Shown piece after piece: positions 6,904-53,681 of a stretch of 64,000 bases of DNA; position 1 is the first letter of the stretch, and each line of letters begins with the position of its first letter. The notes beneath the pieces were generated by a model. That model was given only the letters and a program-made list of their open reading frames with translations, did not search any database and was not told the origin of the DNA. Position numbers and translations under genes: made by a program. Where the stretch lies: assembly GCA_016210005.1 (NCBI GenBank), contig JACQVA010000008.1:74625-138624 (forward strand). The letters run 5' to 3'. This DNA is from Deltaproteobacteria bacterium. Lineage in GTDB: Bacteria; Desulfobacterota; Binatia; HRBIN30; JACQVA1.

Positions 6904-7887
6904 TCACCCGCGCGCCGGAGTTGTGCCGGCAACCGAGCCCGCCGCTGCGCCGGCGTCATCACCGGCGGCGGTGCGGCGCACGACCTCGGCCAGCATACGA
7001 ATGAAGACCGGGTGGTCATTGACGGTAGGGGCGCGAACAAAGACGAGGCCGAGCTGATCCGCCACCGCTCTGGCTTCGATGTCGAGATCGTAGAGCACCT
7101 CGACGTGGTCGCAGACGAACCCGATCGGTATTACCACTACCGTGCCGGTGCCGGCGGCGGCCAGGCGCCGCAGTAGCTCACCGATATCGGGTTCCAGCCA
7201 CGACTCGCGCGGATTGCCGCTCCGGCTCTGGTACGCCAGCGACCAGCGTTTGCGGCCCAAGCGCTCGGCGACCGCGCTCGCCCCGGCCTCGATTTGCGCG
7301 ACGTATGCCGACGACGCGGCCATGGCGGTGGGCACGCTGTGCGCGGTGAAGACCAGATGCGCCGCCGAACCCAGGGCCGGCGGCAGCTGTGCCAGGGCGG
7401 CGGCGGTGCACTCGGCAACGGCTTCGACAAACAACGGGTGATCATGCCACCGGGGAGCGTAAACCACCGCCGGCGCCCCCGCTCCGACCTTGGCGCGCGC
7501 CGCCGTCACCGTTGCTTGGTAGCGCTCCCAGCTGGCTTCCGTTTGTTGTGCCGACAGGATCACACCCACGGCCCGCCGGTGACCGGCGGCCGCCATCTCG
7601 CTCAGGGTCTCGTGTACGTACGGGTGCCAGTTGCGCATGCCGGTAAAGACGGGCAGCGCCGGCCCCTGCGCGCGCAGCGTCGCCGCCAGTGCGTGCGCCT
7701 GCCCGAAGGTCAGACGGTTGAGCGGCGAGCACCCGCCGATCAAGTCGTAGTGCCGCGCGACGGCCTCGATCCGTTCGGGCGGAATCGGCCGCCCGCGGGT
7801 GACGTTTTGCAGAAACGGCCGGACCTCGTCGGCTCGGGTGGGTCCGCCAAAGGCGATCAGCAGCACGGAATCGAAGGTAGTGGACAT
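6904..7887 (-). CDS. hemH: Ferrochelatase
   Basis: A 327-residue ferrochelatase, which inserts Fe2+ into a porphyrin. It begins VLLIAFGGPTRADEVRPFL. YDLIGGCSPLNRLT is the standard family motif, and the metal-site His lies in FTAHSVPTAMA. The signature GFVCDHVEVLYDLDIEA carries the conserved acidic residues facing the active site, and SGNPRESWLEPDI matches the SRxGPxxWLxP block. It sits between hemE and hemY on the same strand. No signal or membrane segment is present; the bacterial enzyme is cytosolic or peripherally membrane-bound. The ATG start is unambiguous. Confidence 0.95.
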   Translation of the reverse strand: MSTTFDSVLLIAFGGPTRADEVRPFLQNVTRGRPIPPERIEAVARHYDLIGGCSPLNRLTFGQAHALAATLRAQGPALPVFTGMRNWHPYVHETLSEMAAAGHRRAVGVILSAQQTEASWERYQATVTAARAKVGAGAPAVVYAPRWHDHPLFVEAVAECTAAALAQLPPALGSAAHLVFTAHSVPTAMAASSAYVAQIEAGASAVAERLGRKRWSLAYQSRSGNPRESWLEPDIGELLRRLAAAGTGTVVVIPIGFVCDHVEVLYDLDIEARAVADQLGLVFVRAPTVNDHPVFIRMLAEVVRRTAAGDDAGAAAGSVAGTTPARG

Positions 7888-7996
7888 CGGTTCTTGTCGG
7901 GCTGCGAGCGTAGCTCGTATTGCGCGCTGTGCCCAGCCCGTTTCGTTCCCGGCGCAAGCGCCTGCAGCGGCCGGGCGAGGAGGCAGGCTGCGGTCT

Positions 7997-9028
7997 TCAT
8001 GCCGGCCGCGCGTTGAACTCGTGCACCGTATCGATCAGCACGCGCACGTGCTCGACCGGGGTCTGGGGTAGGATGCCGTGCCCGAGGTTGAAGATATGTC
8101 CGGGGCGGCCGCGGACCGAGCTGAGGATGGCTTCGGCGCGCCGGCGAATCTCGGCCGGCGGGGCGAACAGCGCGACCGGATCGAGGTTGCCCTGGATAGC
8201 GAAGTCACAGCCGATGCGCTGCCAAGCGGCGGCCAGGTCGCTGCGCCAATCGACGCCGAGCACTGCACCGCCAGCTTCGCGCATGGCTTCGAGCAAGCCG
8301 CCGGTATCGGTACCGAAATGGATGACCGGCACGCCCGGCGTCAGCGCCGCTATCAGATTGCACATGTGTGGCAGCACATACTGGCGGTAATCGCTCGGCG
8401 CCAGGCAACCCACCCAGCTGTCGAAGATCTGAAGCGCGTGGGCGCCGGCGGCGATCTGGCCGTTGAGATAGGCGGCAACCGCGCGTGTCAGCTTGGCCAT
8501 CAGCGCGTGCCATGCCCCGGCATCCTGGTACATCAGCCCCTTGGTATGGAGGTAGTTGCGCGAGGCGCCGCCCTCGACCAAGTACGAGGCGATCGTAAAC
8601 GGTGCGCCGGCAAACCCGATCAGCGGCACCTTCAACGCCGCCACCGCCCGGCGCACGGCCTCGAAAACGAACGCCAGCGTTGCTTGCGGCTCGACTTCAG
8701 GCAGCCGATCAACTTGCGCCCCGTGGCGCACGGGATGGCGGATGCAGGGGCCGTCACCCTTGGTGAATTCGAGGCCGACGCCCATGGGTTCGAGAATGAG
8801 CAGAATGTCGGCGAAGATAATGGCGGCGTCCACCCCCAGGCGCTCGGCGGCGGTGACGGTGACCTCGGCCGCCGCCTCCGGGTGGTGACATAACTCGAGG
8901 AAGCTCATGCGGTCGCGCACCGCGCGATACTCCGGCATATAGCGGCCCGCCTGCCGCATCAGCCAGATCGGGGTGTAGGGCGTGGGCTCACGCCGGCAGG
9001 CCTTGAGGAAGGGGTGATCGGTGAGCAC
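7997..9028 (-). CDS. hemE: Uroporphyrinogen decarboxylase
   Basis: A ~343-residue HemE, which decarboxylates the four acetate groups of uroporphyrinogen III to give coproporphyrinogen [17 protein letters not shown] is the URO-D signature 1, with the Arg residues that hold substrate carboxylates. [24 protein letters not shown] and [12 protein letters not shown] are further family motifs. No ATG is available at the N-terminus. GTG is taken as start; a TTG one codon upstream is also possible and no strong ribosome site decides between them. It heads the hemE-hemH-hemY group, 109 bp before hemH. Confidence 0.94.
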
Positions 9029-9121
9029 CAAGGGTAGCTACGCCAGCGCAAGCTGGTGGTCAAGCCGGGTTTGGCTACGGCACAAGGCTGCTCCCGCGTC
9101 AGGGGGCAGACGCGGCGCAGC

Positions 9122-9916
9122 TCAACGGCTGGCAGCGCCGCGACCCGCGAGCGCTTCGCGCTTGGCGATGCAACTGCTGCAATCAGGCCGCTCGCACACG
9201 AAGAAGGCGGGGTCTTCTTCCAACGCTTGGGTGGCGAGGTTGACCAGATAGCGCACCGGCAGTTTGCGCGCGCTACTGCGCGCCAGCGCTATGCTGGCGA
9301 CCTTCTTCGGGTCGAGGCGCTCTTCGAGCCGATCGAAGGCGGCACTGCAACCGGGCACGTTTTCCAGCACCACCCGTTCCTCATAGCCGGCGGCGTTGAG
9401 CCGGATGGCCGAGCGGCGTTCGAGGTAGGGCATCTGCATCTGTTCTTCGGCCAGGTGAATGGCAGTAACGGAATGGAGCCCGGTGCCGAGCAACAAGACG
9501 TGCCCTTGGGCGATGTTGAGTTTCTTGATCGGCCCGAACACGTTGTTGTCGCGTTGGGTCGAGAGTAGGTCGCGGGCATGTCGCCCGTAAGCAGCGAAGG
9601 AATGCGTCGGATGATTGCTGCGCAGGACCCCCGGCATGCGCCGGAAGGCTTCCGCCACCCGGCCGATCTCGCGGCTTACCGGCAGGTCGGGGTGAAACGC
9701 CACGGTGCGGCCGGCGCGCAAGCCGATCAAGGTTTCGGCGTAGGTGAACGCGGGCATCAAGATCGTGCCGTTGGCAATGGCGTCGATGAGCGCATCGCAC
9801 ACGGCCCGGGCGCCGCCGTCGACTTCACCGAAGGCCGACAGGGAAGAGTGCACCACGACGTGGTTGCCGTGCACGGCCAGCTGTTCGAACAACTGCAAGA
9901 GCTCGCTGCGATTCAT
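9122..9916 (-). CDS. AAC(3)-fold N-acetyltransferase family protein
   Basis: A 264-residue protein of the aminoglycoside 3-N-acetyltransferase (Antibiotic_NAT) superfamily. HVVVHSSLSAFG begins the fold, and MPAFTY, SNHPTHSFAAYG (with the conserved His) and HVLLLGTG follow in the usual order. Most chromosomal members have no shown role in drug resistance, and some act on biosynthetic intermediates. The C-terminus carries CERPDCSSC, a possible metal-binding cluster not typical of the resistance enzymes. The ATG overlaps the stop of the MetE-C gene (ATGA), so translation is probably coupled. That placement argues for a metabolic role; resistance should not be assumed. Confidence 0.8.
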   Translation of the reverse strand: MNRSELLQLFEQLAVHGNHVVVHSSLSAFGEVDGGARAVCDALIDAIANGTILMPAFTYAETLIGLRAGRTVAFHPDLPVSREIGRVAEAFRRMPGVLRSNHPTHSFAAYGRHARDLLSTQRDNNVFGPIKKLNIAQGHVLLLGTGLHSVTAIHLAEEQMQMPYLERRSAIRLNAAGYEERVVLENVPGCSAAFDRLEERLDPKKVASIALARSSARKLPVRYLVNLATQALEEDPAFFVCERPDCSSCIAKREALAGRGAASR

Positions 9917-13904: not shown

Positions 13905-14252
13905 CGTCGCGACCACCGCGCGATTTTGGTGTACCAGCGGATTGGTGTGGCCACATGGCGCATGACATGCCATGTGGCATGCGTGCGCTCGCAGCGCTCT
14001 CCTACGGGTAAGAGTTTCTTCCTATCTCTAACAACTGGTTGTCCACCTACCGCCGCCAGCAGCTGCCGGGAGCGACGAGCAACTGAGCGCTATCCCACCG
14101 TTAAACCAAGTGAAACGTTAACGTATCAGATGATCCAGCAGAGTCAGTGCCGAATTTGAAACTAGCGGCATTAGTCTAATCACGCGGATGCGGTATGTCG
14201 GCCTGGCGATGGCTTGGTTAATGCTGCCTAAGTGGCCAGGAGAAGTTGGGTT
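13905..14252 (+). other. Intergenic region with dyad symmetries
   Basis: A 348-bp gap, relatively AT-rich for this genome, between the AOR gene and the secreted-protein pair. No convincing gene is seen. It holds the overlapping inverted repeats at 13951-13980 and an 11-bp palindrome (ATTAGTCTAAT, 14170-14180). The latter lies ~70 bp before the next start and could be a regulatory site. No clear sigma-70 promoter was found. Confidence 0.5.
13951..13980. repeat. Overlapping inverted repeats downstream of the AOR gene
   Basis: CCACATGGC (13951-13959) and GCCATGTGG (13969-13977) form a perfect 9-bp inverted repeat with a 9-nt loop. The right arm is itself the core of a second palindrome, ATGCCATGTGGCAT (13967-13980). 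No T-tract follows, so a classical terminator is not supported. An operator or mRNA-stabilising hairpin is possible. Confidence 0.55.
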
Positions 14253-14894
14253 ATGCCGAATCTACCCAAAACGCTGTGCGCACTCGCAACGCTTGTGCTC
14301 GGCGGCCTGGGGCTGCCGCCCGCGGGTGCGCTCGTGATTGACGATTTCCGCAGCGGTGTGGCGACCGCGCCCGGCCTGACGCAGCGGGCGGTGGGCAAGC
14401 GCGTCGCGGGCGACTCGGCCCTCGCCGGCGTGCTCGGGGGCGGGCGGCGCTTGGGTGTTGCGGCGGCGCGATTGAGGATTGCAGCACATGATGCAGTCTC
14501 CAGTGGCGTCGTTCCGGAAGCCGGCAGGTTGAACTACGCCAGCACCGAAGGCGCCGACGGCCGCGTCGAGCTGAACTACGACGCCAACGGCCGCGGCCTT
14601 AATACCAATTGGCGCGCAGAGCGGGGTCTTGCTGTCGAAGTGGCCGACGCCGACGCGGCGGCGGTCCCCTACACCGTGACGCTGGTGCTTGCCGACGGGG
14701 AGGGGCGCTCGACCAGTGCCACCCAGACCGTAACTCGAGCCGGCCCCCACCGGATCGAATTTCGCCTCAGCAACCTGCGCTCGCTTGATCTCGGGCGTAT
14801 TCGCAGCCTCACCATCGTCGTCGATCCGGGCGAAGCCGGTGACCTGCAATTGAAGGGCATCCAGACTCTGGCAGGAGGAGCCACCAGCCCTTAG
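14253..14894 (+). CDS. Secreted hypothetical protein, paralogue of the next gene's N-domain
   Basis: A 213-residue exported protein. It starts with a Sec signal peptide (MPNLPKTLCALATLVLGG, cleavage near PPAGA-LV) followed by one beta-rich domain starting VIDDF. That domain aligns along its whole length with residues ~35-220 of the following gene: DDF start, RVE.NYDA versus [12 protein letters not shown], then S.SIR/LTI followed by DP. The two are tandem duplicates. The fold may be a carbohydrate-binding-like jelly roll, but this is only inference. The ATG has AGGAGA ~9 bp upstream; a GTG seven codons earlier is less likely. Function unknown. Confidence 0.72.
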   Translation: MPNLPKTLCALATLVLGGLGLPPAGALVIDDFRSGVATAPGLTQRAVGKRVAGDSALAGVLGGGRRLGVAAARLRIAAHDAVSSGVVPEAGRLNYASTEGADGRVELNYDANGRGLNTNWRAERGLAVEVADADAAAVPYTVTLVLADGEGRSTSATQTVTRAGPHRIEFRLSNLRSLDLGRIRSLTIVVDPGEAGDLQLKGIQTLAGGATSP

Positions 14895-14921: not shown

Positions 14922-17258
14922 GTGACTCGATCAGTACATAGCGCGCGGCGGTCTCCACGAACCCACCTCAGGTTCGCGTACCTCCTAGCCGTACCCGCGT
15001 TGCTTGCCGCCATCAGTGCGAGCGTCGGCGCGTTGACCATCGATGACTTTTCCAGCGCTGATACTACCGGGCTGCCGCCTGGTATCGTGCAGGCCAGCGT
15101 AGGCAGCACCACCGCGACCGATCCCGGTGTCGCGGGCGTGATCGGCGGCGTGCGCCGGATCACGGTGGCGGCTACCAGGATCGCCTCGAAAGCCGACTCT
15201 GTGATCGTTGGGGTATCTACTACGGCGAACCTGCTCGACTATGCTTCCACCGTCGGCGCCAATGGCCGTGTCGAGGTGTTGTACGACGCCGGCGGTGCCG
15301 GCTTGGCTGCAAATCTGGCCCTGACGACCGGCATCAGCATCGTAGTCTGTGGCGCTGATGCCGCCTCTGTCCCGTACACGGTGAGGGTTTTCCTCGTCGA
15401 CTCCGCCGGTCGCAGCGCTTCGTCGCTGCAGAGCTTCACGGTTAGCGGCCCGCGCGCCATCTACTTTCCGCTCTCCGACTTCTCCGGCGTGAACCTGAGC
15501 AGCGTCTTCAGCATCCGCATAACCATCGATCCCAACAAAGCCGCCGACCTTCGCATCGATCTGATCGAAACATCTGGCGACTTCACCCCAACCCCGACCC
15601 TCACGCCAACACCGGAAGAGGAGCCCACCGAGCCGGTGGTTTTCGACACCCCCACCAACACGCCGACTGACACGCCGACCCACACGCCAACGGCAACTCC
15701 GAGCGAGACGCCGACTTTGACCCCGACTCACACGCCGACGCTGACGCCGACTTCGACGCCCACCAACACGCCTACTGACACGCCAACGGCAACGCCAAGT
15801 GAAACGCCGACTCTGACCCCGACTCACACGCCGACGCTGACGCCGACTTCGACGCCCACCAACACGCCTACTGACACACCGACGGCAACGCCAAGCGAGA
15901 CGCCGACTTCGACCCCGACTCACACGCCGACGCTGACGCCGACTTCGACCGCCACCGACACAGCAACGGCTACCGCCACTCAGACCGCATCGCCGACGCC
16001 AACTGCAACCGCCCCGGACCACGGCTGCACTTACACTGTTGGATACTGGAAGAATCATCCCGAGGCCTGGCCAGTCGACAGCATCACGATTGGCGGTGTG
16101 GCCTACACCAAAGCCGAAGCCATCTTCATCCTGCAGACACCAACCGGTGGTGACGCGACGTACATCCTTGCCCACCAGCTCATTGCCGCCAAACTCAATG
16201 TCCTGAACGGCGCCAATGGTGCTGCCGTCGCCGATGCCATTGCCAGCGCCGACACCTGGCTGGCCGCGCATCCTCTCGGCAGCAACCCGTCCGATGCGGA
16301 CCGCGCCTACGGCATCGCCCTGGCGGCTGTTCTCGACGGCTACAACAACGGCGTGATCGGACCGGGCCATTGCGATGACGAACCGCCCACGCCATCACCG
16401 ACCAAGACGCTGCGGCCGACCAAGACACCAACCCCGCCACTACCCACGGCCACTGCAACCCCGACGCGCACTCCGAGCGCAACTCCAACGGCCACCAAGA
16501 CCAGCCGCCCAACCTCCACGCCAAAGGCAACGCCGACCCCATCGCCCACACCGACGCCAACACCGGCACTGGGTGCCGAGTTTTGCACCTTGACGCAGGG
16601 CGGCTGGGGCGCCCCCGGCGGCATCGCTAACGGAACCGCCGGCTTCGTCACTCGCAACCCCGCAATTCTGCCCGCCACTATCGGTGAGCCGGGACGGGCA
16701 ACGACCGTTTACACACAGGCGGCGCTGATCGCTTACCTGCCAACGGGCGGCACGCCCCACCTGCTCAACAGCGGTGATCGTCACTTCGTTGTACCGTTCC
16801 AGGTTGTCGACGATGGCGGCGGCGTGCTCAGCGGTCAGGCGCTCGCACTTACACTGGCCGTTTATCTCTCCGACAGCGGGGGGTCCTTCGCTGGCTTCGG
16901 CTCTCTGTTCTTGACGGCCGAGCCGTTCTGCACGCAGGCACTGAGCGCCGGGCCAGACCGCTTGCTCGGCACCGGCGACGATGAATTGGATGTCGCCAGC
17001 AGCCGTAGCGGCCCATGGGTCATGGCCCCGAGCGTCGTCGGTGACGGCATGACGGTTTATGGCGTTCTCGAGCTCGCGAATCATTACCTCGGCGGCGGCA
17101 GCGGCAGTGCCACGATCACCGAGGTCAACGAAGCTTTGACGACGCTCAATGAGGCCTTTGACGAGTGCCGCCGGCTCGTCCCCTGTAACTCGTACGAATC
17201 CCGCCGAGTGGTCCCCTGGGAGCCGGAGTCCGCGCTCAGGGCACGGCGGCGCCACTAA
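14922..17258 (+). CDS. Large secreted modular protein with Thr-Pro repeat linkers
   Basis: A 778-residue exported protein with an N-terminal signal (hydrophobic [18 protein letters not shown]). Four parts follow: a beta domain paralogous to the previous gene; a ~140-residue Thr-Pro linker built of 32-residue units; a Cys-bounded domain beginning [16 protein letters not shown]; a second Thr-Pro linker; then a domain beginning [14 protein letters not shown] and ending in a Cys-containing tail. The [11 protein letters not shown] and LTQGGWG modules occur in surface proteins of several environmental bacteria without a known function. The start is GTG with GGGAGAG at proper spacing, 27 bp after the previous stop, so it is probably co-transcribed. 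A structural or adhesive extracellular role is plausible but not shown. Confidence 0.8.
15651..15950 (+). repeat. 96-bp in-frame minisatellite coding a Thr-Pro linker
   Basis: Three tandem units (15651-15758, 15759-15854, 15855-15950) code a 32-residue pattern beginning [20 protein letters not shown]. The first unit is longer by one PTHT insertion (108 bp). Adjacent units are almost identical at DNA level while other Thr-Pro stretches in this gene are diverged, which points to recent slippage or unequal recombination. Confidence 0.85.
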
Positions 17259-48352: not shown

Positions 48353-48366
48353 GGCGAGTCTTCACG

Positions 48367-48765
48367 ATGTCACTCTTCCTGCGCATCGCCGCCGGCATCT
48401 CGGTGTTATGGGCGTTGTTGCTGTTCGCCGGCCGCTCGGCCTACCTCGCGGCTGAGCCGGGTACTCCGTTGCACCACGCGCTGGCCAACGGCCTCGGTAT
48501 CGTGCACCTGATCTTCGCCTTCATGCTGTGGCGCGCGGGGGCCCAGCCGCCACGCGAACGCACGGTGATTTACGGCGCCATGATCTGGCTCGCACTGCGG
48601 ATCGCCAACGATCTTTATGAGCTGCTCGCGCTGCTGCGCGGCCCCGAAGCCTTCCCCAGCATGCTCGACATGATCGCGAGCCTGGCTCTGCTGGTGGGCA
48701 TCCTGCAGGCGCTGCCGGCGACCTTGGCTGCCGGGCAAGAGCGCGGACCCGAGCCACAGCGCTAA
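48367..48765 (+). CDS. Small integral membrane protein, unknown
   Basis: A 132-residue protein with about four hydrophobic segments: IAAGISVLWALLLFAG, ALANGLGIVHLIFAFMLW, GAMIWLALRIANDLYELLAL and MIASLALLVGILQALPA. It is probably a compact four-helix membrane protein. No family recognised. It lies 14 bp after the hydrolase stop on the same strand, so the two are probably co-transcribed. The ATG at MSLFLRIAAG is chosen since the in-frame stretch upstream lies inside the hydrolase gene. Confidence 0.7.
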   Translation: MSLFLRIAAGISVLWALLLFAGRSAYLAAEPGTPLHHALANGLGIVHLIFAFMLWRAGAQPPRERTVIYGAMIWLALRIANDLYELLALLRGPEAFPSMLDMIASLALLVGILQALPATLAAGQERGPEPQR

Positions 48766-48978
48766 CCAGGCCCCGGCGGAACAATTGACAGCGGAGATTC
48801 CGGCGAGCGGAGCGTGGGCGCCGCGCCCGCGCGCCCGGGGCGGGCGTGGAAGAAGGGAGCCAGCGCCACACGCGAGATTCTGTGCATCGAAGACGCCCGA
48901 TCTGTGGAGCAAGGGCCTGAGCGCGACCTCGAACCGGCCTATGGCCGTAACCTCGCCGGGCGTGCTAAGAACGCGGCC

Positions 48979-50055
48979 ATGCCAGAGTCGCAAGCGAGCG
49001 GCGGCGGCGCGGCTGCTCGGTCGGAACCGGCGGGCTTCGCCGTGGGTTTGGGGCTTACCAACGAGTGTGACCTACACTGCGCCCACTGCTATCGCGACAG
49101 CGATCGAGTCGACCGCCTGTCACTCGACGAGGTGCGGCGCGTCTGCCGGAGCCTGCCGATCCGCGCCGTCAACCTGGGTACGGGCGAGAATGCCCTGCAC
49201 CCGGAATTCCGCGCCATCGTGCGCGAGCTGCATCAGCACGGCGTAACCCTCACCCTTACCTCCAACGGCTACAGCATCCGCGCCCTGCCTGACGAAGAAC
49301 TGCGCTGGCTGCGCGATGTCGAGCTGTCGCTCGACTTCGCCACCGAGGCGGAGCAAGACGCCTGGCGCGGTGCCGGCAACTGGCGCCTGGTGCAGGAGCA
49401 GCTGGCGCGCTGCCGCCGCCTCGGCATTGGCGCAACCGTCACGGCGGTGATGATGCGCTCCAATTATGAGCGGCTGCCGGCACTTGCCGCCGTGGCATCC
49501 GAGCATGGCGCGGGGCTGCGGATCAACGTATACCAACCGGTGAAGACCGATGCCTTCACGCTCAGCTATGAACAGTTCTGGACGGGCTTTCGCCTGCTGC
49601 TCGACAGCCGCCCCCTGCTCGCCTGCAGCGAGCCGATAGTCTGTGCCGCACTGGGGCTGAGCCGCGGCAGCAGCGGCTGCGGCGCCACCACCGTGCGCGT
49701 GAGCCCGAGCGGCCAGGTGTTGCCCTGTGTTTACTGGCCGAAGCGCAAGCTCACCTTGGCGGACCTCGAGCGGCTGGGCGCCGGTGTTGCCGGCTCGCCC
49801 GAGTTCAACGAGCTCAAGATTGTGCCTGACGTCTGCCGCAGCTGCGAGCTGGTCGAAATCTGTGGCGGCGGTTGTGCCAGCCGCCGCCTGCGCCGCGGCG
49901 GCCTGCACCTGGCGGACGAGTTCTGCCCATTGCTGCGGGGTGAGCAGTGGCCGGTGCGGCGGCGCCCGCGCCCGGCCGGACGCGAATTTCCCAAGGTCAA
50001 CAGCGCCTGCACCAGCATTTTCGGAGCGCGCGCCAGCTCGGGAGCGCGGGGTTAG
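48979..50055 (+). CDS. Radical SAM/SPASM-domain protein 1
   Basis: A 358-residue radical SAM enzyme. C30, C34, C37 (NECDLHCAHCYRD) bind the SAM [4Fe-4S] cluster; NLGTGENALHPEF and SNGYSIRALPDEEL are barrel motifs. The C-terminal SPASM-type region has Cys residues for auxiliary clusters (SGCGATTVRVSPSGQVLPC, VCRSCELVEICGGGCASR). SPASM enzymes modify peptides or small molecules, or act in cofactor synthesis. It starts a five-gene plus-strand cluster. No precursor-peptide gene was found in the 213-bp gap upstream. The ATG at MPESQASGG is chosen; the region before it is low-complexity. Substrate unknown. Confidence 0.85.
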   Translation: MPESQASGGGAAARSEPAGFAVGLGLTNECDLHCAHCYRDSDRVDRLSLDEVRRVCRSLPIRAVNLGTGENALHPEFRAIVRELHQHGVTLTLTSNGYSIRALPDEELRWLRDVELSLDFATEAEQDAWRGAGNWRLVQEQLARCRRLGIGATVTAVMMRSNYERLPALAAVASEHGAGLRINVYQPVKTDAFTLSYEQFWTGFRLLLDSRPLLACSEPIVCAALGLSRGSSGCGATTVRVSPSGQVLPCVYWPKRKLTLADLERLGAGVAGSPEFNELKIVPDVCRSCELVEICGGGCASRRLRRGGLHLADEFCPLLRGEQWPVRRRPRPAGREFPKVNSACTSIFGARASSGARG

Positions 50056-50062
50056 TTGGACA

Positions 50063-50710
50063 ATGCCGACCGCGCTCGTCGTCATGGCCCGCTACCCGGA
50101 AATCGGCCGGGTCAAGACGCGCCTGGCGCGTGCTATCGGCGACGACCGCGCCCATGCGCTGTACCGGGCTTTCTTGCGTGACATAGAGGCTCGCTTCGCC
50201 GGACAGCGGCGGACGCTGGTGTGGGCCTTCCACCCGCCCCAAAGCGACTTCGCGGCGGTGGTCGGGCGCGGGCGCTGCCTGCCGCAAGTCGGCGGCGATC
50301 TCGGTGAGCGGCTGCACAACTGCTTTCGCAGCTTGTGCCGCGAGGGCTTCGACTGCGCACTGATAATCGGCGGCGACGCGCCGCACGTGCGCGAGGCCTG
50401 GCTCGACGAGGCGGAGCACGCGCTCGCACGAGCCGAGGTCGTGCTCGGCCCCAGCGCCGACGGCGGCTACTACCTCATCGGCATGCGCCAGCCCCACGAC
50501 CTGTTCAGCGGCATCGAGATGAGCACGCCGCGCGTGCTGGCGGAAACCCTGGCCAAAGCACAAACCGCCGGCCTGCGCGTGCATCTGCTGCCGGAGAGTT
50601 TCGACGTTGACGAAGAGAGCGACGTCGCCCGGCTGCGCGCGTTGCTGGTGCACGACGGTTCGCAGTTGCCGTGCACCGCAGCGCTGTTGCGGGGTTGGGA
50701 GCAGCCGTGA
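50063..50710 (+). CDS. TIGR04282/DUF2064-type glycosyltransferase-like protein
   Basis: A 215-residue GT-A-like nucleotidyl/glycosyl transferase. MARYPEIGRVKTRLARAIGDDRA resembles the nucleotide-binding start of TIGR04282, LIIGGDAPHV supplies an Asp-containing motif, and GPSADGGYYLIGMRQPHDLF is the family signature. This family is named for arsenosugar biosynthesis but is widespread in clusters with other roles. It sits 7 bp after radical SAM gene 1 and overlaps the next gene by 4 bp (GTGA), so the cluster is transcriptionally tight. No arsenic genes (arsM, arsS) are nearby, so the arsenosugar link is not supported. Confidence 0.85.
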   Translation: MPTALVVMARYPEIGRVKTRLARAIGDDRAHALYRAFLRDIEARFAGQRRTLVWAFHPPQSDFAAVVGRGRCLPQVGGDLGERLHNCFRSLCREGFDCALIIGGDAPHVREAWLDEAEHALARAEVVLGPSADGGYYLIGMRQPHDLFSGIEMSTPRVLAETLAKAQTAGLRVHLLPESFDVDEESDVARLRALLVHDGSQLPCTAALLRGWEQP

Positions 50711-51243
50711 GCGCCGCCGACGCCAGCCAGCGGCTATTCAGCACGCTCAATCGCGTCTATCTCGTGCTTGCGCGCATCCTGATCGGCTACTTGTGGTACA
50801 CGCAAACACTGTGGAAGCCGCCCCCGCACTTCGGCAAGATCGGTGCCGACGGCGGCTTGTGGCACTTCCTCAAGTGGGAAGTCGAGTACCCCACCTTCCA
50901 GTGGTACAAGTGGTTCGTCGAAGCCGTTGTGATGCCGCACTACACGTTGTTCGGCTACCAGGTGTACTTCCTCGAACTGGCGATCGCGGTCTCGCTTGGC
51001 TTTGGCGTGCTCACGCGCCTGGGGGCACTGGCCGGTACGCTGATGGCGCTCAATCTGCTCATCGGCCTCTACTCGGTACCGTACGAATGGGCGTGGTCGT
51101 ACGCGATGCTGGCGTTGCTGTGCGCCGGCTTGCTGTGCGGCGGTGCCGGGCGCATCGCCGGCATCGACGCGCTGCTACTGCCGCGGCTGCGCGCTGCCGC
51201 ACCGCGGCACCGCCTCGCACGCCTGCTGCTGTGGTGCATGTGA
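50707..51243 (+). CDS. DoxX-like integral membrane protein
   Basis: A 178-residue membrane protein with about four TM helices: RVYLVLARILIGYLWYTQTL, YTLFGYQVYFLELAIAVSLG, GALAGTLMALNLLIGLYS and AWSYAMLALLCAGLLCGG. The pattern RILIGYLW...QTLWKPPP recalls the DoxX/TQO small-subunit group (membrane redox proteins). Start is GTG in a GTGA overlap with the transferase stop. Its own stop overlaps the next radical SAM start (TGATG). It may supply electrons or a membrane site to the cluster; that is inference. Confidence 0.75.
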   Translation: MSAADASQRLFSTLNRVYLVLARILIGYLWYTQTLWKPPPHFGKIGADGGLWHFLKWEVEYPTFQWYKWFVEAVVMPHYTLFGYQVYFLELAIAVSLGFGVLTRLGALAGTLMALNLLIGLYSVPYEWAWSYAMLALLCAGLLCGGAGRIAGIDALLLPRLRAAAPRHRLARLLLWCM

Positions 51244-52280
51244 TGGCGCACTACTTCGAGCAGCTCTCGGCTGCGGAGTGTGGCCCGCTGGTGCCCAACG
51301 CCCCGGTGTGCTTGTACCTCGAAGTCACCAACCGCTGTAATCTGCTGTGCCAGACCTGCCCGCGCACCTTCGCCAGCGTCGAGCCTCCGGCCGATCTGAG
51401 CTTGGCGCGCTTTGCCATGCTAGTTGACCAGATCGACGATCTCCGCCAGCTCGTCCTGCATGGTGTGGGCGAGCCGCTGATGAATCCGGAGTTGCCGGCG
51501 ATGATCGCTTACGGCAAAGCGCGCGGCGCGCGGGTCACTTTCAATTCCAACGCCACACTGCTGCTGCCGCGCCGGCAGCGGGCGCTGATCGAGAGCGGGC
51601 TCGACGAGTATCGCGTCTCGCTCGATGCCGCCGACGCCGCCACCTTCCGGCGCGTGCGCGGGCGCGATCACTTCGATCGCATCGTCGACAGCCTGCGCCA
51701 GTTCGTGGCGCTGAAGCGGGTGTGGGGCGTGCCCACGCCGGCCATCTCACTCTGGCTGGTGGCTTTGCGCGACACTATTCACCAGCTTGCAGGCGTGGTT
51801 CGCTTGGCGGCGGACATCGGCGTGCCCGAGGTCTACTTGCAGCGGCTGGTCTACGGCGGCAACGGCCGTCAACAGGGCGTCGCGGTTGCCAGCCAGTCAT
51901 TGTACGGCACCAGCGACGCCGCCGTGGGCGAGGCCATTGCCGGCGCCGCTGCTTTGGCGCAATCACTCGGCGTGACGCTGCGGGCCTCGGGCGCCACCAC
52001 GCCGGAGCAGAGCCTGTGGCGCGACCAACACCAGCGCCCATGGAGCCACTGCCGGCGGCCATGGACGCTGATGTACATCACCGCCAACGGTACCGTGCTG
52101 CCATGCTGCATGGTGCCGTTTGTCGAACGCGACTTGGGGGCCTTGCCGTTGGGCAACGCCTTGGTGCAGCCGCTGGCGGAGATTTGGAACGGCCCGCCTT
52201 ACCGGCGATTCCGTTCCGCATTGCTCAGCGATCAGCCGCCGCGCTGCTGCACCGGCTGCGGCGTGCGCTGGAGTTTGTGA
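51243..52280 (+). CDS. Radical SAM/SPASM-domain protein 2
   Basis: A 345-residue radical SAM protein. C32, C36, C39 (TNRCNLLCQTCPR) bind the catalytic cluster; LVLHGVGEPLMNPELPAM and FNSNATLLL are typical of the barrel. The C-terminal part has a SPASM-like set (NGTVLPCCMVPF, then RCCTGCGVRW). It resembles MoaA/PqqE-like and cofactor- or lipid-modifying radical SAM proteins. The ATG overlaps the DoxX-like stop, so all four genes are probably one operon. It is not a close duplicate of radical SAM protein 1. Substrate unknown. Confidence 0.85.
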   Translation: MAHYFEQLSAAECGPLVPNAPVCLYLEVTNRCNLLCQTCPRTFASVEPPADLSLARFAMLVDQIDDLRQLVLHGVGEPLMNPELPAMIAYGKARGARVTFNSNATLLLPRRQRALIESGLDEYRVSLDAADAATFRRVRGRDHFDRIVDSLRQFVALKRVWGVPTPAISLWLVALRDTIHQLAGVVRLAADIGVPEVYLQRLVYGGNGRQQGVAVASQSLYGTSDAAVGEAIAGAAALAQSLGVTLRASGATTPEQSLWRDQHQRPWSHCRRPWTLMYITANGTVLPCCMVPFVERDLGALPLGNALVQPLAEIWNGPPYRRFRSALLSDQPPRCCTGCGVRWSL

Positions 52281-52337
52281 CGCGGTGAGAGCGGCCGGCA
52301 GGGTGGGAGGGCGAGGCAGGCGCCGCGCCAACTGGTT

Positions 52338-53681
52338 GTGACAAGCGGGGCTCCGGCGGCGGCGCCGCCACACGATATCGCCGTTGTGATGCCGGCCGGC
52401 AGCGTGCAGCTGATCGTCCTCGGCGTCGTTCTGCTCGGCGGCGCCGCGGGCGGGCCGCTGGCCTTCGCCGCCGGCGGCTTGCCGGCGTTTCTTGCCGTCT
52501 ACCTGGTGCAGTTGGGAGCCTGGATTTGGGCGGCGCGGGTGGTGTGGCGGTCGGGTGCGCGAGCGAGCGTCGCGCTCATCCTGGGCTTCGCGCTGGCGAT
52601 GCGCGTGGCCGTCATGACGGCGCCGCCGTTCTTATCCTCTGACGTCTACCGCTACATCTGGGACGGCAAGCTGGTGCTGTACGGCATCAACCCGTTTAGC
52701 TTTGTGCCGGCCGCGCCGGAGCTGGCGCACCTGCGCGACGCGAGCATTTATCCGCGAGTGAACCGGCCCGGCAGCACCCACACCATTTATCCGCCGCTGG
52801 CACAGGCCGCGTTCGCGGCTGCCTACAGCACCGGCGGTGATAGCGTCGCGGGCATGCGCGGCGTGTTGCTGCTCGGCGAATTGGTCACGGCTCTGGCCTT
52901 GCTGGTGCTGCTGCGACGGTGGGGGTTGAACCCGGCGCGGGTGCTGCTCTACGCCTGGTGTCCCTTGCCGCTATGGGAGATCGGCAGCAGTGCGCACGTC
53001 GACGGCTTGGCCGTCACCGCGATCACCTTGGCGTTGCTCGCCGACGCGCGCGGGCAGCGGTTCGGTAGCGGCCTGGCGCTGGCTGCAGGCGCTCTGACCA
53101 AACTCTATCCGGCAGCGCTGCTGCCGCTGTTCTGGCCGCGGGGACGAGCGCGCATGCTGCTAACCTGCGTGCTCGCCAGCGTGCTGGCATTCGTGCCGTT
53201 GCTTTCGGTCGGCCGCGGCATTGTCGGCTACTTGCCCTGGTACTTGGCCGAGGAGGGTTATGGCAGCGGCGAACGCTTCCTCTTCTATCGCCTGCTCGCA
53301 CGCTTGTGGCCGAGCGCGCCGCCGGCGGGATACTATGTGCTGGCGGCGGCGGCCGGCGCATGGGTGGCCGGGCAGGCCACACGCCGCAGCGCGGCGGCAC
53401 CGCGAAAACTCAGCGTAGCCGCGGCCGACGTTGCGGGCTGCCTCCTACTGCTGGCGACACCGCATTACCCCTGGTACATGCTCTGGCTCTTGCCGCTGTT
53501 GTGCGTGAGCCCGAGCGCACCGTGGTTGTACCTGGTGGCCGCCGCGCCGGCTTTGTATCTTGGCGGACTCGATGCCGAAGTGGGCGAACGCAGCTTGCTG
53601 GCAGGCACACTCGTGTACGGCGGCACCGCTGTGCTGGTAGCGTGGCGGGCGCTGTTCGGCGACCGGGCGCAGCCCGGCTGA
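52338..53681 (+). CDS. Polytopic membrane glycosyltransferase (GT87/mannosyltransferase-like)
   Basis: A 447-residue membrane protein with ~10-12 hydrophobic segments. SSDVYRYIWDGKLVLYGINPF near residue 100 is the acidic loop motif of polyprenol-phosphate-dependent GT-C glycosyltransferases (MptB/GT87 type). IYPPLAQ, AHVDGLAVTAI and ALTKLYPAALLPLF follow. It would add a sugar to a lipid or glycan on the outer face of the inner membrane. Start GTG 52338 is tentative; an ATG at 52389 is also possible. It closes the radical SAM cluster 57 bp downstream of gene 2, and could glycosylate the product. Confidence 0.8.
   Translation: MTSGAPAAAPPHDIAVVMPAGSVQLIVLGVVLLGGAAGGPLAFAAGGLPAFLAVYLVQLGAWIWAARVVWRSGARASVALILGFALAMRVAVMTAPPFLSSDVYRYIWDGKLVLYGINPFSFVPAAPELAHLRDASIYPRVNRPGSTHTIYPPLAQAAFAAAYSTGGDSVAGMRGVLLLGELVTALALLVLLRRWGLNPARVLLYAWCPLPLWEIGSSAHVDGLAVTAITLALLADARGQRFGSGLALAAGALTKLYPAALLPLFWPRGRARMLLTCVLASVLAFVPLLSVGRGIVGYLPWYLAEEGYGSGERFLFYRLLARLWPSAPPAGYYVLAAAAGAWVAGQATRRSAAAPRKLSVAAADVAGCLLLLATPHYPWYMLWLLPLLCVSPSAPWLYLVAAAPALYLGGLDAEVGERSLLAGTLVYGGTAVLVAWRALFGDRAQPG

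Follow-up and report, generated by a model that had tools for sequence, protein, structure and literature searches.

The five plus-strand genes at 48979-53681 of the window (the whole 64,000-nucleotide stretch of DNA that was analysed) belong to a real, conserved and widespread gene set, which is apparently undescribed. Tentatively, and with slightly less than even confidence, we read the operon as the form that a widespread but uncharacterised pathway, leading to a glycoconjugate with a modified sugar, takes in this genome. The genes lie where the preliminary description had placed them, and the overlaps it reported do join the TIGR04282, DoxX-like and rSAM2 genes. The operon and the gene upstream of it are as follows.

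48364..48765, plus strand: small hydrophobic protein without family assignment, upstream of rSAM1
48979..50055, plus strand: rSAM1, radical SAM/SPASM protein (PF04055, TIGR04085 SPASM domain)
50063..50710, plus strand: TIGR04282/DUF2064 protein (TIGR04282 score above the cut-off)
50707..51243, plus strand: DoxX-like polytopic membrane protein with a GTG start (DoxX score below the cut-off; relatives in conserved loci)
51243..52280, plus strand: rSAM2, radical SAM protein with a short SPASM domain (PF04055, PF13186)
52338..53681, plus strand: GT87-type polytopic glycosyltransferase, GT-C fold expected (marginal Pfam GT87 score)

The rSAM1 and TIGR04282 genes are separated by 7 bases, the TIGR04282 and DoxX-like genes overlap by 4 bases (GTGA), the DoxX-like and rSAM2 genes overlap by 1 base (TGATG), and 57 bases lie between rSAM2 and GT87. 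Both rSAM proteins have the CX3CX2C motif and a radical SAM domain (PF04055; 54.5 and 54.6 bits), followed by a SPASM domain that scores above the cut-off in each case (TIGR04085 in rSAM1, 37.2 bits vs a cut-off of 27; PF13186 in rSAM2). The TIGR04282 protein (173.3 bits, cut-off 134) is the sole copy found in the window's genome, and is related to the CofC nucleotidyltransferases (guanylyltransferase CofC). The GT87 assignment is marginal (26.9 bits, Pfam cut-off 25), and the DoxX-like protein is called DoxX-like only, since its 20.8 bits are below the PF07681 cut-off of 23.6; it has clear relatives among the conserved loci. The small hydrophobic protein at 48364..48765 has no family; the conserved loci showed no such gene, and it probably lies outside the unit.

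To collect relatives of rSAM2, an alignment was required as the query, since the single sequence retrieved nothing from the genome contigs. The scan with a four-sequence alignment gave 185 relatives, and 80 named loci were kept (50–59% identity), mostly from Acetobacteraceae and other Rhodospirillales and from Methylobacterium; further relatives were found in Bradyrhizobium, on a contig labelled Acidobacteria, and, in the plasmid collection, in the actinobacterium Miltoncostaea. Many Acetobacteraceae thus have the cluster, as do Methylobacterium and at least one further named phylum (Actinomycetota). According to tblastn gene maps, the order in the conserved loci is TIGR04282-GT87-rSAM2-GT2 on one strand, and in 50 of the 62 loci with enough flank rSAM2 is adjoined on the same strand by TIGR04282, GT87 and a GT2 similar to polyprenyl-phosphate-sugar synthases. 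The neighbourhoods of both radical SAM proteins, which the preliminary description had singled out for comparison, show that relatives keep these genes together and not at separate loci; because the same partners are clustered in relatives, the window genes are no chance assembly. GT87, GT2 and TIGR04282 are further tied to one pathway by gene fusions on the Miltoncostaea plasmid, where a single protein comprises GT87 and GT2, and TIGR04282 carries a fused Nudix domain. Optional partners at the rSAM2 loci include a solute-binding protein, DoxX, an aminotransferase, an MsrP-like molybdopterin oxidoreductase (48/83 loci), a cytochrome b (46/83) and a PNP/UDP-type phosphorylase (21/83). No description of the gene set was found in the literature on TIGR04282, DUF2064, DoxX or SelD with radical SAM proteins.

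The GT2, which resembles AglJ and dolichyl-phosphate hexose transferases, belongs to the set though it is encoded elsewhere in the window's genome, and it had been missed by the preliminary description. Its best homologue in this genome is on contig C61, with 54% identity to a cluster GT2 (42% for the next best in the genome), and does not lie within a related cluster. This homologue (L062, 7350-8851) overlaps a gene for a CobS-like protein (cobalamin synthase).

rSAM1 has all seven SPASM cysteines, carries GTGEN where most radical SAM proteins carry GGEP, and ends in a C-terminal tail of the conserved pattern R-x(3)-K-x2-SACT, whose conserved cysteine is C344; the stretch around SACT does not vary among 13 orthologues drawn from two distant groups. 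It is rare in the window's class (6 of 148 genomes, counting the window's own), with 57–66% identity to same-class orthologues and 45–50% to alphaproteobacterial ones. At the loci of the five other genomes of the class, rSAM1 is followed by DoxX, GT2, TIGR04282 and GT87, without rSAM2. This order is complete in L049 and L193, cut by contig ends in L046 and L047, and interrupted in L048 by two inserted genes, one for a zinc-type alcohol dehydrogenase and one class II aldolase-like, which lie between rSAM1 and DoxX (7223-9220). A secreted-looking protein of about 250 aa also recurs beside rSAM1 in the class (L045 2839-3570, L046, L048 3161-3979 and L193 3208-3978); it has no Pfam or NCBIfam match, and is sometimes accompanied by a transglutaminase-like protein. 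A selenocysteine in rSAM1 was considered and rejected, as the internal-TGA flags were terminal stop codons only. A predicted rSAM1 structure from a two-sequence alignment had a pLDDT of 54 and was set aside.

By sequence similarity the window operon is a hybrid, having an rSAM1 of its own class type together with rSAM2, GT87 and DoxX resembling alphaproteobacterial versions. The window DoxX-like protein is of the type of the alphaproteobacterial loci (45% identity to the copy in L084) and has no match to the DoxX of its own class, and the window GT87 is about 40% identical to GT87 of the conserved loci.

An rSAM1 orthologue beside the rSAM2 core was also found in Methylobacterium sp. E-065, M. 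brachiatum and four more genomes of the same family (the E-065 copy had no match in the plasmid collection), and here selenium genes accompany the rSAM1 version, a link that the preliminary description had missed. In the five complete loci with both rSAM1 and rSAM2 (L136 6921-18681, L187, L189, L191 and L192), these two genes, TIGR04282, GT87, GT2 and DoxX are co-located with SelD (5/5; as a separate protein or joined to a flavin reductase domain) and with a selenate-type ABC transporter. The binding protein of the transporter (5/5) scores 340–360 bits against TIGR04553, named as the binding protein of a 'putative selenate ABC transporter' (cut-off 250). Several of these loci also contain a methyltransferase and a phosphorylase, the methyltransferase being UbiE-like in some.

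For comparison, none of 20 SelD loci of the same family that are unlinked to rSAM1 contains a core gene; the difference (5/5 vs 0/20) has p = 2e-5, with fewer than five effectively independent cases because the loci are related. The same transporter is found in 3 of the 20 control loci, which means that SelD and the transporter also make up a separate unit. In the sample of the family, SelD is present in 4 of 5 rSAM1 genomes vs 50 of 243 others (p = 0.009), the rSAM1 locus of the fifth genome being on a 5.3-kb contig, and among chosen genomes it is present in 11/11 rSAM1 carriers and 0/5 carriers of rSAM2 only. Most genomes of the window's class have SelD (125 of 148, 84%), and its presence there therefore carries no weight for the link. 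No SelD was found within the rSAM1 loci of this class; the SelD of the window's genome is on contig C9, outside the window, and no core gene was found in the region around it. We regard the use of selenium by the rSAM1 version in some lineages as probable, a serious but unproven option. For the window's own product selenium would be read across from relatives only, and we do not claim it there.

For the pathway as a whole, we infer every catalytic step, the product and where in the cell the product resides. One or both radical SAM enzymes would make or modify a sugar, or form a 5'-deoxyadenosyl adduct that becomes a sugar. Given the relationship of TIGR04282 to CofC, the TIGR04282 protein is most naturally read as activating a sugar phosphate with a nucleotide; it would produce a nucleotide sugar much as CofC-type enzymes activate their phosphate. 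GT2 may then load the activated sugar onto polyprenyl phosphate. GT87 enzymes are expected to use lipid-linked donors (PimE-type enzymes), and the GT87 protein here would transfer the sugar at the outer face of the membrane, outside the cytoplasm, with the DoxX-like protein as a possible membrane redox or quinone partner. A more specific form of this reading, which we consider rather unlikely, is that the rSAM1 version leads to a new sugar or glycolipid that contains selenium: SelD would supply selenophosphate, a radical SAM enzyme would form a C-Se bond on a sugar or on 5'-deoxyadenosine, the phosphorylase would free the sugar, and its activation, loading and export would fall to TIGR04282, GT2 and GT87.

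The documented selenium small-molecule pathway is that of selenoneine, encoded by senABC with a SelD-type SenC and the Se-glycosyltransferase SenB (PMC9814287, PMC10891094), and its discoverers expected others (PMC9814287). The rSAM1 loci of the Methylobacterium relatives are similar in that a selenophosphate synthase adjoins sugar-transfer genes, but they have two radical SAM enzymes, TIGR04282, GT2, GT87 and DoxX, and SenA and SenB were not recognised in them (an observation made without sequence-based comparison). If selenium is involved, these loci bear on whether selenium metabolite pathways beyond selenoneine exist (PMC9814287); if the selenium-sugar proposal is true, bacteria would have, in these loci, a second class of pathway for selenium small molecules, and the window would hold a relative of it. 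Culturable Methylobacterium strains carry the cluster, which opens the selenium idea to direct test.

Several other readings were weighed against the glycoconjugate pathway. Maturation of a metalloenzyme or redox cofactor, which we judge unlikely, would fit the resemblance of rSAM2 to maturases of tungsten enzymes (TIGR04311, 129.7 bits) and of the 'Geo metal' type (TIGR04317, 120.5 bits), both below the cut-off, as well as the molybdopterin oxidoreductase and cytochrome b genes at many rSAM2 loci. However, the oxidoreductase is missing from many loci and from the window, while the three glycosylation genes are nearly constant.

An RiPP-like pathway, with a peptide that is modified by the SPASM radical SAM proteins and decorated by the glycosyltransferases, is in our view improbable. 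SPASM proteins are often peptide maturases, and the best NCBIfam match of rSAM1 is the mycofactocin maturase, although at 77.7 bits it is far under the cut-off of 265. The SPASM set of rSAM2 is shorter, with conserved C270, C288, C289, C336 and C339; the solved proteins nearest to it in sequence are PqqE and BtrN, an enzyme that oxidises an aminocyclitol. The rSAM2 model (pLDDT 77) aligns with SuiB, SkfB, BlsE, DesII and PqqE at Z 20–22, with SuiB and SkfB as the best or equal best matches. Fold comparison was tried as a separator of peptide and sugar enzymes and failed, as the scores tie: on the predicted structure, the sugar-acting BlsE and DesII appear level with the peptide maturases, so that sugar-acting enzymes are among the nearest, in keeping with the glycoconjugate reading, but no substrate class is singled out for rSAM2. 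The radical SAM family matches of rSAM1 and rSAM2 name no substrate either. Against the peptide reading, of the small ORFs close to the core, none shows conservation beyond 3 of about 88 loci (very short, divergent or distant peptides could escape such a search), and neither an RRE nor a PqqD-like partner was seen. The preliminary description had reported no precursor peptide, and this holds for 48766-48978, where the only ORFs of at least 20 aa encode 24 aa (plus strand) and 41 aa (minus strand), neither of which looks real.

A variant arsenosugar pathway would have a radical SAM enzyme add 5'-deoxyadenosyl to an arsenical, with TIGR04282 and GT2 finishing the sugar. The TIGR04282 family is named 'arsenosugar biosynthesis glycosyltransferase', and the conserved set is similar to the arsenosugar module (ArsS TIGR04167, TIGR04282 and TIGR04283) in having a radical SAM enzyme beside TIGR04282 and GT2; a TIGR04282-like gene is found in 5 of 18 ArsS loci, 3 of these 5 also having a GT2 match. 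But the radical SAM families differ (rSAM1 has 34.2 bits vs the TIGR04167 cut-off of 300), the conserved GT2 has 50 bits to TIGR04283 (cut-off 182), and the set has GT87 and DoxX in addition. None of the 18 ArsS loci contains GT87, DoxX or a close relative of rSAM1 or rSAM2, so the arsenosugar loci, which the preliminary description had named as a known pathway that might contain the same set, do not contain it. No ArsM-type gene was recognised within the conserved set, and the true ArsS of the window's genome is on another contig without an adjoining TIGR04282. We consider this pathway very unlikely, and the 'arsenosugar' name of the TIGR04282 member unsupported by the evidence for this gene set. 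The ArsS gene (434.7 bits) is at 3989-4894 of contig C28 (L162), with no TIGR04282 or GT2 alongside.

Hopanoid side-chain elaboration is highly improbable. Some relatives combine a radical SAM protein with a nucleoside phosphorylase, an aminotransferase and a glycosyltransferase, reminiscent of the logic of HpnH, HpnG, HpnO and HpnI of the hopanoid side-chain pathway, but the gene set is of other families, the phosphorylase is optional and has 19 bits to HpnG (cut-off 187), and no squalene, hopene or other triterpene gene was recognised among the recurring neighbours. The analogy is one of logic, not of membership. The 25 top-scoring NCBIfam matches of rSAM1 and of rSAM2 include neither HpnH nor HpnJ. 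Of the undescribed glycolipid, hopanoid-type or cofactor pathway suggested in the preliminary description, the hopanoid-type product is unsupported, given the phosphorylase score, while the undescribed character stands, as no described pathway with this set was found.

The core also adjoins genes resembling the mycobacterial Rv1679-Rv1681 set: an Rv1681-like radical SAM protein, an Rv1680-like binding protein and an acyl-CoA dehydrogenase were found next to it in Miltoncostaea (L044 318-8978) and Bradyrhizobium (L140 2472-13370). All scores are under the NCBIfam cut-offs and such genes are absent from the window, but these neighbours may link the unexplained mycobacterial genes to the conserved set. 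Elsewhere in the window, the N-terminal stretches of two adjacent ORFs (14232-14894 and 14922-17258) resemble each other (LVIDDFRSG and LTIDDFSSA).
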